Shown here: positions 1-10,662 of the stretch, piece by piece | How positions within the stretch are numbered: position 1 is the stretch's first letter | Layout of the letters: every line of letters starts with the position of its first letter | Assembly (NCBI RefSeq): GCF_949628265.1 | Contig: NC_088790.1 | Span: 8,746,545-8,810,544 of the forward strand | DNA: 64,000 bases | Direction: 5' to 3' | From: Cloeon dipterum | Taxonomy: Eukaryota; Arthropoda; Insecta; Ephemeroptera; Baetidae | Position numbers and translations under genes: made by a program | The notes under the pieces: generated by a model | The model's input: only the letters and a program-made list of their open reading frames with translations | What the model was told of the DNA's origin: nothing | Database searches by the model: none

Positions 1-129
1 TGTGTCGGAGTTTTTTGTAGGCGTAACAGGCAACAAACTCCAAGTCGCCATCTGATTGGCTGAAAAAGCTATCGACCTGCCACCTGCCAGTGGATGCTGA
101 ACTTCTTAGCTGGCTCATTTACGCGCCAT
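1..129. other. Left flank of the hAT insertion, no gene seen
   Basis: This short stretch lies outside the transposon. I see no coding exon in it. Before the insertion it would have been continuous with position 5884 onward, so it is probably part of the intergenic or promoter DNA upstream of IARS2. Confidence 0.5.
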
Positions 130-137
130 ATGAGTGA
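130..137. repeat. Left 8-bp target-site duplication of the hAT element
   Basis: The octamer ATGAGTGA directly precedes the element's terminal TAGGGCTGCCA, and the same octamer directly follows the other end at 5876-5883. An 8-bp duplication is the hallmark of hAT-superfamily integration. The two copies are identical, which argues for a fairly recent insertion. Confidence 0.93.
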
Positions 138-148
138 TAGGGCTGCCA
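138..148 (+). repeat. Left terminal inverted repeat of the hAT element
   Basis: TAGGGCTGCCA at this end is the exact reverse complement of the last 11 bp of the element. The next three bases (GAC here, ACC at the other end read inward) no longer match. Confidence 0.9.
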
Positions 149-789
149 GACACTTACTGCAAGCGACCCGGAGCTTAAACGAAAAAAGGGGTGTGGCTTA
201 AAAGGGGGCGTGGTCAGAGGGGGTGTTTCGGTGTTTGTTCAAACTTCAGACGCGAAAGACCGACTCCAACGTCGCCAAACAGATGGTAAACACACGCATC
301 GTCGCATCGTGGCCACAGCGGCATGAAAAGTGATCCAAGATCTCGTGGTTTTCTCATCTTATTATGGACGGAAAATGGAAAAACGGCGAGAGGGAAGAGG
401 GAATGCGAAATCAAAAGCTTCCGTGTGACTGGAGAAGCTACGAAGTGGTTTCTGTGCCTGTCACTCCCGCAAAACAGGTGAGATAATTAAAATAGAAAAT
501 GTATGTACAGAAAATTCAATGCGGGCTATGTGCAATTCCGCCTTCTGTACAAGACTAGCTTTTATTTTATGAAATATAATTGAATTCTTCCTGCTCTTGG
601 AAAATTGCGCTCCTTTCAACAAATATTCAGTGTCAAATTATTTGTCGCCCTTTTCTTGCGACAAAGAAATTCGCGTTTGGTTGTTGAAAGTTCCACGATT
701 ATTGCACTACCAGGACAGTAATAATTATTATCGTTGTTTCATGATTGAAGAATTTATTTATTTATTTATCTCTGCAGATGATGACAAGC
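149..789. other. hAT subterminal region without a convincing gene
   Basis: Between the left TIR and the minisatellite there are G-rich runs (GGGGTGTGGC and GGGGGCGTGG near 190-215) and a CCCGGAG like those at the right end. Small ORFs at 214-414 and 597-830 have no recognisable content. This is probably the 3' untranslated or subterminal part of the element, since the transposase reads leftward. Confidence 0.5.
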
Positions 790-1782
790 TGATGCCCATT
801 GAGTTGCTGCTGCCCTCTGAAAAATGCTGACGACTGACCCTCGTCTGACGACATAGACCTGGCCACTGCTGGGCAAGGCCATGCAGCTGCCCAAGAAGTC
901 CCTGCTGCTGCCCCAGAAGTCCTGCTGCTGCCCATTGAGTCCCTGCTGTTGCCCATTGAGTTGCTGCTGCTGCCCATTGAGTTGCTGCTGCTGCTCCACA
1001 CTGAAAAATGCTGACGACTGACCCTCGTCTGGCGACATAGACCTGGCCACTGCTGGGCAAGGCCATGCAGCTGCCCAAGAAGACCCTGCTGCTGCCCCAG
1101 AAGTCCTGCTGCTGCCCATTGAGTCCCTGCTGTTGCCCATTGAGTTGCTGCTGCTGCTCCACACTGAAAAATGCTGACGACTGACCCTCGTCTGACGACA
1201 TAGACCTGGCCACTGCTGGGCAAGGCCGTGCTGCTGACCAAGAAGTCCCTGCTGCTGCCCCAGAAGTCCTGCTGCTGCCCATTGAGTCCCTGCTGTTGCC
1301 CATTGAGTTGCTGCTGCTGCCCATTGAGTTGCTGCTGCTGCTCCACACTGAAAAATGCTGACGACTGACCCTCGTCTGGCGACATAGACCTGGCCACTGC
1401 TGGGCAAGGCCATGCAGCTGCCCAAGAAGACCCTGCTGCTGCCCCAGAAGTCCTGCTGCTGCCCATTGAGTCCCTGCTGTTGCCCATTGAGTTGCTGCTG
1501 CTGCTCCACACTGAAAAATGCTGACGACTGACCCTCGTCTGACGACATAGACCTGGCCACTGCTGGGCAAGGCCGTGCTGCTGACCAAGAAGTCCCTGCT
1601 GCTGCCCCAGAAGTCCTGCTGCTGCCCATTGAGTCCCTGCTGTTGCCCATTGAGTTGCTGCTGCTGCCCATTGAGTTGCTGCTGCTGCTCCACACTGAAA
1701 AATGCTGACGACTGTCCCTCGTCTGACGACATAGACCTGGCCACTGCTGCCCAAGAAGTCCCTGCTGCTGCCCAAGAAGTCC
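790..1782. repeat. CTG-rich minisatellite with alternating 184/163-bp units
   Basis: The landmark TGAAAAATGCTGACGACTG begins at 818, 1002, 1165, 1349, 1512 and 1696, so spacings run 184, 163, 184, 163, 184. The longer unit contains one extra 21-bp TGCCCATTGAGTTGCTGCTGC segment. The true period is therefore a 347-bp dimer, a higher-order repeat. The units are nearly identical, with diagnostic differences such as GTCTGACG versus GTCTGGCG that also alternate. It ends beside a poly-C run at about 1781-1792. It lies wholly within the hAT element, downstream of the transposase stop. The long minus-strand ORFs across it are a by-product of repeat composition and I do not call them genes. Confidence 0.92.
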
Positions 1783-1792
1783 CCCCCCCCCC

Positions 1793-2160
1793 AAAAGCAA
1801 AGTTGACATCTGCACTGCGCAGTGTAAACTTGGAATAATATTTTCAAAAAATAAAAAAATTTATTTCAAAACAAAAATTTTTATTTTAATTATAAATTTG
1901 ACATCATTTTACGCATAATAGACGTAAACTTTCACATTTCTTATTTACATAATATCAATTGACTTAGACAGTCATTTCAATTTTATTTCAGTCCCAAATG
2001 ATCAGTCTTCACGTATGGTAAATGCTTGTTTAACGCATATTTCATTAAGGAACTGTACTATAGGAATTGAGCTTAGCAAGTGAACACAGCATTGGTTACT
2101 GAAATCACATCATTTCATCTTTTTCAGTTGATTTATAAACTTTCAGACTCTATATTAAGC
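1793..2160. other. AT-rich 3' untranslated region of the transposase gene
   Basis: No ORF is supported here. Read on the minus strand it follows the transposase stop. TTTATT on the plus strand (an AATAAA signal on the minus strand) occurs at 1982-1987 and 1860-1865, either of which could end the transcript before the minisatellite. Confidence 0.5.
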
Positions 2161-5076
2161 CTAAGACATCAAATATTTTCTTGCACTCACAACCATTTCG
2201 ATTAGCTTCTTTTGATTCGGATGACGCAGGAACGCAGGGAAGGCTGAACAGAGCATATCGAAATTAAAGTAGACCATCATCTCAGATTCAACAGATGATA
2301 CAAGCAATGAGTTCCTTTCAGGGGTCCATGCAGCCTTAAGAACCGAGAAAATTCTTTCAACAAATGCATTTGATGATGGGATAGACATCACAAATGATAC
2401 TAATTTAAATAGCGTACACATCGGGCGCTCGTTTTGTTGGTTGAACAACAAAGCCCAAATCTTGGGTAGAGTTTGAGACATTAGATCGGTCTGCTGCATA
2501 TTCCTCAAAAGTTTGTTAGCTACCACAACATCAGAAAAGAGGAGATCGCAGTCAACTGTAATTCTGAGTAACTGACAGAGATCCGCAATTTCCCTAAATA
2601 CGAGCTTGTCCGTCTTCTTGACGTTCAGGGCTTGGCATTGAGCGTACAAACCCCCTAGAGCATACCTCTTTTCAATGTAGTTGATGGCATCTTCCACCGA
2701 GCGCCGACACTGATCCAGAAAGCACTTCTTTTCATAGCTGGTAAGCGCTACTAGTCCTTTGTCAATTGTACTTCCAAAGTAGTTGCTCTCAACCCTATAT
2801 CAGAAGTCAGAACATGAATTTTTAAAATTAAACAAAAAGAATTTTTTACCTTTCCTTCAGATTGCTTACAAGCTCTGATACGCACTCCTCAACATCCATG
2901 ATAGTAGCTTCGGTTCTCTCTAGACACTTGATGGAAGTAGCAAACACCGAGCTCAAAGTTGACCAAAATTGAAGGTGCATTTCATTTAGGGTCGGATTGT
3001 TCTCGTCTGTGAGTTCATGCTAGCAAGAAATAAAATAAAATTTAGAAAATTTATTAACTTTTAAAATTTACCTCTTGATCATGTAGGAACTCCCAAATCA
3101 TTTGAGGGCATTTAGTTTCACCCAAACCCAAGAAGTACGCCTTCAATGGCTTCCAGAATTTTTGGATTTTATGCAAACCTTCGGCGAGAGACAGCCAGCG
3201 AACGTTGGTGTGCTTCGTGATCTAAGATCAATAAACATTAAATATGATTATAAATAAATTAAGCATTCCTACCTGCTGGTACTCCACATCACAGTATTCG
3301 AATACCTCCATCAGCGCCGCTTCTCTCTTCGACGATTGGTTTAGGTGCCCACATATTTTTAAAAGAATAGCTTCGCAGTCTGGCTTGTATCTGACCATAG
3401 CGTTTTTGGCAGCATTGTGCAACAGGTGTGCAGGGCACTTCAGAGGCAAAATCTTTGGATTTTCCATTTTAAGTTTGGCATACACGGAATTTTGTGTGCC
3501 AAAATTGACGCTGCAGCTATCCCCAGCAAACGCTGCTACATGCTCTACTTGTAACCCCATCTGAGCAAGGCTTTGCTTGAGGTCAGAATGTAGCTCTAAA
3601 ATTTTGAAGAATGAAAAATTTGTTAAATTAATTATTTTAAATTACTTTGAGCTGTTCCGTCTGAACTACAGACTACGGAGATCACTTTCTCTTTCAGGCC
3701 TTCTCCTTCTTTGAAGTACCTGACAACGTATGGGTAAATCGACTTATTGAATCTGGTTGACCCATCAGACATGATTGTAAAATAGCGGGGTTGCCGGTTG
3801 TAATTGGAGTCTTGGGACAACACCAGATCCATCTTGACCATGGATAGCGAATATGGGGCAAGTGCACCCCGCACGACTGCTGCTGCTTTAGTCCTTCCAC
3901 AGGTCGTCTTGGCTGCTGTTTTAGAATCTTTGAAAATTTTAGGCAGCAACTGAAACAATTAATTAGGATTCTAGAAAGGCCTATTATTTCAAATATTTTA
4001 TTTAAAGGATGATAGTGAAATATTAATGTAGAAAAATGTAATCGCGAATTTCTCTAAGAGTGTTTAAGTTGATATTTTCCATTATACTTTTATATTTTAC
4101 CTTGCTTTCGCAGTCAACTGATGCGTAGCTATGGTGGTGCTTGATGGCATGGAAGCAAAGAGTTGCTTCCGCGACAGCGATTTCAACGTCTGGTTTAGAG
4201 AGCTCCTTCACAGCGTAAGAATCAATTTTTGATTGCGTACTGGCTTTGGAAAGGTGAACTTGGTGTGCCTTAGACGCTTCGTGTTCTGTAAGGGCCTTAA
4301 GACCATCATGGCGCACACTCTTCCTTACACTACAGCAAACACATAAGAAGGTTTCATCATCAATTTTCTTAAGCCAGTGGGAAAAGCGAGGGTCACGCAG
4401 CCATTCCTCTTGAAAACTGGAGTAGTATCCCCCTGATGGTTTTCTTTTCTTTGATTTCCTCTGTCTCGGTTTCCTCCTTTTTGTGGATCCCTTGTGGTTA
4501 ATCATTTCTCCACCACTTTCGGACTCAACCTCATGGGCAGGGGGAGAGTTATCTCTTGTTTCTTTCTCAGTATCCGATTCAATTCCCGAATTATACACAT
4601 CTGACTCAAGTCGGCTGAAGTCGGCTTGACAATCTACATCATCCACTCTATCGCCCATTTGTCCGCTGATAGACGATTCTTCAGGGAGATCAAAGGTCTG
4701 TTCAGTGCTTTCTTCATAAGATAGAGCTACCGAGAATACATTTTAAATTTATACATTAAAACATTCTTCATTTAAGCTCATTACCATCACTTGCTTTGCC
4801 TCTATTTGCTGCATCATTGCGTACAATTTGTACAGGAATTTTTATTCCATTCACCTCCCAGATGAGGGTGTTGTCATCTTCACCTTCATTTGTATTTGTC
4901 GTCAATAAATGGTATGCACTATTCACATTTATATCCCTCTGGTTATTTGAGTGTGTGTCGACGTCGACGCTGGATTCGCCGTGTAGAATTTCTATTGTGT
5001 CGTCCTGGGAGTCTGCTGAAGGTTTTGAGGGGACAATCGTATTTCCCCTTTGTTTTCTAATTATATATTTATCCAT
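2161..5076 (-). CDS. hAT-family transposase, seven coding exons, intact
   Basis: Coding exons by splice signals are 5076-4785, 4726-4101, 3949-3646, 3595-3273, 3221-3072, 3019-2850 and 2794-2161. Their 2499 nt give 832 aa plus a stop with matching phase at every junction. Introns are mostly 48-60 bp, one about 150 bp. A 5' UTR exon probably ends at 5146. The protein begins MDKYIIRKQRG. Near residue 230 is a zinc-finger-like module (FQEEWLRDPRFSHWLKK, then CVCC and spaced His) resembling the BED/TTF fingers of hAT proteins. Candidate DDE acidic residues are D368 (TIMSDGSTRF), D433 (AFAGDSCSVNFG) and E768 in SSNAFVERIFS, which belongs to the hAT C-terminal dimerisation domain. A TNVRWLSL segment fits the hAT insertion domain. 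No frameshift or stop is seen. The family assignment is sure. The residue alignment is my inference. Confidence 0.9.
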
Positions 5077-5146
5077 GGTGTACTTGTATGCTATGAAAAA
5101 CAGTTTGCTATTGATTACACTAAATATTTGTATTGATATACTCACT

Positions 5147-5861
5147 TTTTTCCCATGCTAGTTTATTTGCCTTCCAGTGAAGTGAAATTGATGCTGACTA
5201 GATCACTAGATAGTAGATAGAGGATGAAATAGGGATTTTCAGTCTTCATTTCTTATGGTCTTTCAGTTCGCAGTGTTTTGTTCTGGTTCGCACTTTTCCT
5301 AAAATAGAAAGGTTCAATAAATATCGCAATCAAAAAATCAGGCACCACGGCACCAGCAACCAGCACCAAAGGGCAAGACGAATATTTTCAGCGTATGCAT
5401 ATGCATAATTCAAGATTATTTTTAGTCCGCCGAGGCGCCGACCCAATGACTAAGAACAATTATTATTTATTTCTCCTTACCTTACCCTTACACTTGCATC
5501 CTTACATTGCTCATGTCATAGCTTATATCCTACATTATTCATTATATGATTATATCATAATAATATCACTTTGCTGCATGCTGCTTGTCCTTAATTGAGG
5601 ATACAGATTCCAAAATCCTAATCCCTAATTCTTTCTTAAAACGTAAACAAAGTTGTCAGCCACAGCCACTGTCACCAACATAACTAATATTAACGAGATT
5701 TTCAACTTTGAAAGTATTTCGTCTTAAATGACGTTAATATGGGGAAGAAAGGGTTTTTTTAAAAATTGCTTACAAACCGGAGATTAACTAGTCAAAATTT
5801 AGACCCGGACACTCCGGGTCCAAGTAGTCCAAAACCCGGAGATCTCCGGTCGAAACCCGGA
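5147..5861. other. Right subterminal and promoter region of the hAT element
   Basis: No coding region is supported. Read on the minus strand, this is the transposase promoter side. A 5' UTR exon appears to end at 5146 with a GTGAGTAT donor. The stretch 5800-5865 carries repeated CCCGGA/CTCCGG motifs in both orientations that probably act in transposase binding. Small ORFs at 5395-5598 show only hydrophobic low-complexity content. Confidence 0.55.
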
Positions 5862-5864
5862 GGT

Positions 5865-5875
5865 TGGCAGCCCTA
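5865..5875 (-). repeat. Right terminal inverted repeat of the hAT element
   Basis: TGGCAGCCCTA closes the element and is the reverse complement of the left terminus. It is followed at once by the second ATGAGTGA. Confidence 0.9.
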
Positions 5876-5883
5876 ATGAGTGA
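5876..5883. repeat. Right 8-bp target-site duplication of the hAT element
   Basis: This is the second ATGAGTGA, identical to 130-137. It places the insertion about 190 bp before the IARS2 start codon. Confidence 0.93.
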
Positions 5884-6067
5884 GCAGGGGCTGTTAGCGA
5901 CTAGCGACAATCAAAACATTGCTGTGTGCGAGAAAGAGAAGAGAAGTGCCTGGTTGAACCTGTGGTGGAGTCGACTGAGTCGTCGGAGAGCTTGTAACAT
6001 AAACCATTTTTATTTTTCTTCTCTGATATTTAATTCGAAATTTCAGCATTGCTGAACAAACGCCAAA
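5884..6067 (+). promoter_or_regulatory. IARS2 promoter-proximal region with a possible 5' UTR intron
   Basis: No TATA box is seen. A possible 53-bp 5' UTR intron runs from GTAACA at 5994 to a pyrimidine-rich TTTCAG ending at 6046. The acceptor is good and the donor weak. The start codon context is CCAAAATGT. The hAT element now separates this short segment from whatever regulatory DNA lay upstream. Confidence 0.35.

Positions 6068-10662
<4,595 letters not shown>

Follow-up and report, generated by a model that had tools for sequence, protein, structure and literature searches.

Terminal inverted repeats of 10–25 bp are described for the hAT superfamily of transposons (PMC3942097). Hermes, as described in PMC10368747, encodes a transposase of 612 aa and inserts with the target preference nTnnnnAn; its BED domains bind a quasi-palindromic pair of subterminal repeats near the left tip, and these repeats are asymmetric between the two ends. 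The account of BuT2 in D. willistoni reports two copies with large transposase segments together with 24 MITEs that keep both ends; the duplications were identical within copies and different between them, and recent mobilization was inferred (PMC3942097). CGG-containing motifs are given as typical of CGGBP1-related proteins and of the hAT-19 subclass in PMC8097297, where the zinc finger of CGGBP1 is also reported to escape Pfam.

Our analysis covered a 64-kb window (the whole stretch of DNA under study, C5:8746545–8810544) within an assembly of 190.1 Mb in ten contigs. We put at roughly 0.8 the probability that the window harbours a full-length, probably autonomous hAT, that this was recently moved by cut-and-paste into a 303-bp palindromic MITE between the divergent Dus and IARS2 genes, and that its transposase moves the MITEs that share its right tip. 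This reading draws on features that were observed directly, namely the termini, the duplications, the nested site, an open spliced gene, a silent-site bias and shared right tips. As a kind of transposon the element is ordinary, and its insertion history is unusually clear to read. It represents a well-dated intact hAT with likely MITE dependants in one genome and with one candidate source gene found, a tractable case in which to study the upkeep of a MITE family by a single autonomous copy, and a candidate tool for gene transfer. For insertion and excision, the nested empty sites provide ready-made controls.

In the apparent order of a putative BED-like finger, putative D..D..E residues (both placed by eye) and a probable C-terminal dimerization region, the transposase resembles that of Hermes and other Ac-type elements. 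Further points in common are the 8-bp duplication with the nTnnnnAn preference (19/32 at T2/A7 in the related MITE insertions), the short inverted ends, and subterminal repeats that are distributed asymmetrically and include a palindromic pair near one tip, which is the right tip in the window element and the left tip in the description of Hermes. The element differs from Hermes, as given in PMC10368747, in size (832 codons in seven exons against 612 aa) and in its repeat (CCGGAG against AAGT), and its transposase has no sequence match to any solved hAT structure. With the hAT-19/CGGBP type it shares CGG-containing subterminal motifs and, putatively, a zinc finger missed by Pfam (there, the finger of CGGBP1), whereas in the main text of PMC8097297 neither 'palindrom' nor 'CCGG' occurs at the start of a word; this possible kinship is offered as a lead only. 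BuT2 of Drosophila is similar in having a spliced hAT transposase and few transposase copies alongside MITEs, but it is described in PMC3942097 as encoding 643 aa in five exons, and the full copy in our window can be dated through the unrelated MITE that it interrupts.

Termini and transposase gene of the element

The earlier note had described two identical 8-bp target duplications and matching 11-bp inverted ends, and both descriptions hold to the letter (Table 1): the two duplications do not differ at any base, and the inverted terminus is exact over 11 bp, where the match ends. When the whole 64-kb window was scanned for an 8-bp duplication and an 11-bp inverted pair, both exact, this was the sole combination, and when inverted ends of 7 bp were allowed instead there were 10 such pairs, the hAT pair among them. 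A chance inverted repeat was ruled out, as this is the sole exact pair of such length in the window and empty sites exist. Membership of the hAT superfamily is indicated by the short, exact inverted repeats and by 8-bp target duplications, which were found at the element itself, at 16 related MITE insertions and, in single copy, at three unoccupied sites.

Table 1. Positions in the window of the hAT element, its transposase exons, the interrupted MITE and the adjacent IARS2 exon
Feature	Positions	Strand	Basis or remark
Full-length hAT-type transposon	138..5875	-	5738 bp
Left 8-bp target duplication ATGAGTGA, copied from host MITE	130..137	.	Identical to 5876-5883
Right 8-bp target duplication ATGAGTGA	5876..5883	.	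Identical to 130-137
Left terminal inverted repeat TAGGGCTGCCA	138..148	+	Exact reverse complement of 5865-5875
Right terminal inverted repeat	5865..5875	-	Pairs with 138-148
Right subterminal region, five CTCCGG/CCGGAG motifs	5726..5875	.	Motif count
Right terminal 50 bp common to MITE family	5826..5875	.	37 listed short matches and 45 distinct tips
Minisatellite, CTGCTG-rich, 347-bp unit (apparently 184+163), 2.8 copies	805..1783	.	TRF
Transposase exon 1, weakly supported	4785..5076	-	Open frame with GT-AG intron; weak codon-usage signal
Transposase exon 2, C-x2-C...H-x5-H BED-like finger	4101..4726	-	Splice model; finger by eye
Transposase exon 3, TIMSDGS	3646..3949	-	Both flanking splice strings exact in C4 relative
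Transposase exon 4, AGDSCSVNFG and CPAHLLHNAAK	3273..3595	-	Both flanking splice strings exact in C4 relative
Transposase exon 5	3072..3221	-	Both flanking splice strings exact in C4 relative
Transposase exon 6	2850..3019	-	Intron 5 acceptor string exact in C4 relative
Transposase exon 7, VERIFS (by eye) and probable C-terminal hAT dimerization region	2161..2794	-	Pfam Dimer_Tnp_hAT
Host MITE, part left of hAT	1..137	.	MITE starts 156 bases before window start
Host MITE, last 10 bp	5884..5893	.	Comparison with empty copies
Host MITE, right 8-bp duplication TTAGCGAC	5894..5901	.	Left copy in upstream piece L034 1837-1844
First coding exon of IARS2	6068..6286	+	ORF, boundary by eye; identity from later exons

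The CTCCGG/CCGGAG motifs are concentrated at the right end of the element, with 5 in the right 150 bp, 1 in the left 150 bp and 0 in the 5438-bp middle, and the right-end count compares with a mean of 0.05 and a maximum of 2 across 5000 shuffles. Two copies of the motif make up the exact palindrome CCGGAGATCTCCGG, which lies 27–40 bp from the right tip.

Downstream of the transposase gene, the minisatellite fills roughly half of the transposon's left third. It is absent from the relative on contig C4 described below, and an assembly search that skips simple repeats gave no second match for it. All three of its minus-strand frames are open over about 1.1 kb (361, 364 and 367 codons); these were set aside as a coding feature and read as a likely by-product of repeat units that lack stops, since 347, the length of the unit, is not divisible by three. 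A run of twelve C (1781–1792) stands where the minisatellite meets sequence shared with the C4 relative. Neither the minisatellite nor the nesting in a MITE had featured in the earlier note. No tRNAs were found in the 64-kb window. Elsewhere in the assembly, a scan of the first 10 kb of the two smallest contigs and of the first 2 kb of three others revealed neither TTAGG nor TTAGGG runs.

The splice model on the minus strand reproduces the seven-exon transposase gene that had been proposed from the sequence, with 832 codons plus a stop, free of internal stops and frameshifts, and with six GT-AG introns of 58, 151, 50, 51, 52 and 55 bp. Exon 1 is its weak part: codon usage there is the best of the three forward frames (p 0.0095 against shuffles) but slightly below that of one reverse frame. 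The coding start could lie later, the next in-frame ATGs being codons 121 and 172. Exon 7 matched the Pfam profile Dimer_Tnp_hAT (PF05699) at E 2.7e-4 and 21.1 bits, 0.3 below the cut-off of 21.4, and this was the sole meaningful Pfam match of the transposase; Pfam gave no match for the exon 2 finger. A search of PDB sequences with the transposase returned nothing relevant, with no Hermes or other hAT structure and one meaningless match at E 0.34. Reading by eye, we take C-x2-C...H-x5-H, TIMSDGS, AGDSCSVNFG and VERIFS to be the BED finger and the D-D-E core, with VERIFS in exon 7 presumably supplying the third acidic residue, and we take the order of the finger and these motifs to be that expected for a hAT.

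A further line of evidence comes from the only relative found in the assembly, a fragment at C4:35487.5–35492.2 kb with two nucleotide matches of 90 and 94 % identity, about 90 % alike, in which neither tip is present and the minisatellite, exon 1 and part of exon 2 are missing. The comparison thus covers the gene from the 3′ part of exon 2 through exon 7, everything 5′ of this lying outside the relative, and over this range an excess of changes at third positions supports coding, with differences at 40/606, 25/605 and 70/606 of codon positions 1, 2 and 3. These comprise 69 silent and 66 amino-acid changes (dN 0.048, dS 0.203, dN/dS 0.236 over 604 codons), so that per site silent changes are about fourfold more frequent than amino-acid changes, and we infer that most of the divergence probably accrued while the two lineages encoded a selected protein. 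Several insertions or deletions interrupt the exons of the C4 fragment, but none of the aligned codons is an in-frame stop; where the protein search listed stops for this fragment, they fall in read-through stretches that include introns and shifted frames, and the window copy shows the same.

Splice sites of introns 2–6 are largely preserved in the C4 relative, where 8 of the 10 tested recur exactly as short strings (9/11 strings, since two were used for acceptor 6). Not recovered were donor 2, which adjoins a nested insertion, and donor 6, which meets a C4 deletion. The introns themselves differ at 12/325 aligned sites, fewer than the third positions (70/606; Fisher p 2.9e-5), a reversal of the usual order that speaks against a simple picture, and 34 gapped intron sites may conceal some change.

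The interrupted MITE and the age of the insertion

The element sits inside a 303-bp palindromic MITE that has an 8-bp duplication of its own. The 2 kb upstream of the window were taken into the analysis, where the left part of this MITE occupies L034 1845–2137. When the flanks are rejoined, the 303 bp are self-complementary at 88 %, and the outer 131 bp differ at 3 positions. Members of the family end in CAGCCCCTGCTCACTCATATGGCGC, are almost fully palindromic and have 8-bp duplications, and they occupy at least 40 places in the genome, the window copy counted (82 matches were listed, most places once per orientation, with 40 of 103 candidates scored). In all three other copies that were read (L085–L087) the target is unoccupied, ATGAGTGA standing just once at the corresponding position, and each copy has its own perfect duplication. 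The empty-allele sequence expected at the hAT site is GCGCCATATGAGTGAGCAGGGGCTG.

One unoccupied copy, at C1:8005939, equals the interrupted MITE at 303/303 positions, and the absence of differences sets a 95 % upper bound of 0.98 % on divergence; the other two empty copies have 8/303 differences each, with five positions in common. The C1 copy is bounded by another duplication, and its flanks do not resemble those of the interrupted MITE at E ≤1e-3; it is therefore an independent insertion. Full identity to an independent copy indicates that the MITE insertion is recent, and the hAT that interrupts it is therefore younger still; gene conversion among MITE copies could blur this estimate. Identical 8-bp duplications alone would not prove recency, and the description of the element as young in the earlier note is now borne out on firmer ground, by nesting in a MITE that is identical to an unoccupied copy on another chromosome.

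Copies in the assembly and the right-tip MITE family

A genome search for further copies and their divergence, which had been suggested as a check on the age of the element, yielded the one broken C4 relative and no second full-length copy. Positions 1840–5875 matched themselves, the C4 fragment and 37 listed short stretches, the latter confined to the right terminal ≤82 bp with 83–98 % identity over up to 82 bp; 40 of 49 candidates were scored in this nucleotide search, and the match count is a lower bound. The left 343 bp matched one other place in the genome, over 47 bp. The protein search (637 residues, E ≤0.001) gave 13 matches with 8/8 candidates scored, all of them in the window copy or the C4 fragment.

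Allowing ≤3 mismatches, we counted 69 occurrences of the right 20-base tip in the assembly, compared to 6 for the reversed control. The 57 cut-out loci examined gave 45 distinct tips including that of the window (one, L026, has a poor tip), and inward of the tip 39 of these have a MITE interior in common, one belongs to the window element, and in the remaining five (L029, L047, L051, L061 and L063) the MITE interior was not made out. Apart from the window, the examined sites thus include 44 distinct ones with the right tip, of which 39 are MITE-like; the tip was also the search key, so agreement at this tip arises by selection. The palindrome is exact in 18/45 tips and within two mismatches in 31/45, part of the tip loci having been selected on the palindrome stretch itself.

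Sixteen distinct MITE insertions of 81–183 bp carry perfect 8-bp duplications, a perfect duplication being the entry condition for this set. In their duplications T at position 2 and A at position 7 were seen in 19/32 cases (p 3.3e-4) compared to 21/96 at the other symmetric positions, in keeping with the nTnnnnAn preference of the Ac family of hATs; the hAT's own duplication agrees at position 2 and not at position 7. Outside the inverted repeat, the left ends of 11 of 14 MITEs agree with that of the element at p ≤0.05, which is weak support because the MITEs are not independent. For 4 of the 14, the nearest neighbour is 96.3–99.3 % identical (gaps left out), and the right-tip MITE family therefore looks young too. 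A second transposase with these ends was not found in the assembly, and the window hAT looks like the sole intact source copy for this family there.

In the mechanism that we propose, the BED-like finger at the N-terminus of the transposase would bind the CTCCGG/CCGGAG repeats near the tips, and the bound protein would pair the two ends and cut. The cut ends would then be joined to a staggered 8-bp target, with a preference for T at position 2 and A at position 7. The same protein, whether from the window locus or from identical copies now gone, could mobilize short MITEs that keep the right-end palindrome. Recognition of the ends through the CCGGAG site is suggested by the Hermes mode, in which BED domains engage a subterminal pair, and by the CGG motifs of CGGBP1 and hAT-19 proteins.

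MITEs with the tip CACTCTCC, which is the commoner MITE tip, differ consistently, in the bases adjoining the inverted repeat, from the CAACCTCC of the element, so that the true source of the MITEs could be a close relative outside the assembly. This difference, along with the finding of just one full-length copy and no sign of amplification, is what would be expected if the gene were intact by chance, in a recent insertion already silent, and the MITEs had been moved by another, lost transposase. We regard that explanation as possible but doubtful, since insertion into a MITE fully identical to another copy denotes a recent move, since no other transposase with these ends was found, and since all but five of the MITE-side tips could be followed into the shared interior. 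A probably autonomous element that serves its own MITEs is the reading we prefer.

Neighbouring genes and other histories of the locus

The element lies 184 bp upstream of the IARS2 ATG. Pfam identified the downstream gene as an isoleucyl-tRNA synthetase in 2/3 stretches tried, and against PDB sequences bacterial-type enzymes (E 3e-19) ranked ahead of cytoplasmic ones (E 4e-7), as expected for a mitochondrial enzyme, which fits IARS2. Upstream, a gene on the minus strand encodes a dihydrouridine synthase (Pfam Dus, 225 bits), which we take to be of the DUS4L type. The gap between the two genes, presumed to be the shared upstream region of both, measured 757 bp from ATG to ATG in its native state (583 + 8 + 166) and by the coordinates now measures 6814 bp, with native stretches of 166 bp and 583 bp left next to the ATGs of IARS2 and Dus, respectively. 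It had been claimed that the insertion cut the IARS2 5′ end off from its former upstream DNA; an intact hAT does stand upstream, but it landed in a MITE already present, and the native upstream DNA of IARS2 had therefore been split earlier.

The widening of this gap, and a transposase gene whose 5′ end faces IARS2, could point to a changed promoter for IARS2 and/or the divergent Dus gene. Since the transposase gene is oriented away from IARS2, only a divergent (bidirectional) effect is plausible, and with the native stretches kept the core promoters may be untouched; an altered promoter is, in our judgement, rather unlikely. Lower still stands a far-reaching extension, which we consider improbable as a whole: that the element is the sole current transposase source for a young MITE family, that its CGG-binding finger acts on the CCGGAG palindrome, that in its latest move its own promoter came to lie between two housekeeping genes that were once divergent and about 757 bp apart, and that presence or absence of the locus sets both MITE mobility and IARS2/Dus regulation in the population.

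Recent horizontal transfer would account for a single full-length copy whose closest relative in the genome is broken and only about 90 % alike, but MITEs with the same right tip are spread in the genome and that relative is resident, from which it follows that the family has been here for some time, and the one viral collection searched, by a method sensitive to close relatives only, contained no relative. We consider such a transfer improbable too. In this one collection of viral contigs, six stretches fitted the peptide pattern and none was related, and the right-tip pattern (18 fixed and 2 free bases) gave one match, which had neither a second end nor a duplication nor any coding similarity and was judged to be chance.

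That the gene is instead a domesticated transposase maintained by the host and no longer a mobile element, as its one intact copy, the low dN/dS against the only relative found and the want of other full-length copies might suggest, was rejected as hardly credible, because the gene lies between exact inverted ends and exact duplications within a recently inserted MITE, where there has hardly been long enough to evolve a host function, and because the selection signal stems from the lineage before the insertion.

The assembly also contains other hAT-type genes, as 13 places match the hAT dimerization domain profile at 30–53 bits, above the cut-off of 21.4, neither the window element nor the C4 fragment being included. 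The C4 relative carries a nested insertion of about 2.2 kb at its exon 2/intron 2 border (L033 about 3349–5526). By eye, this insertion starts with CCCTGCAAG and ends with CTTGCAGGG, and TGACGT/ATATCA repeats and internal inverted repeats are abundant within it.
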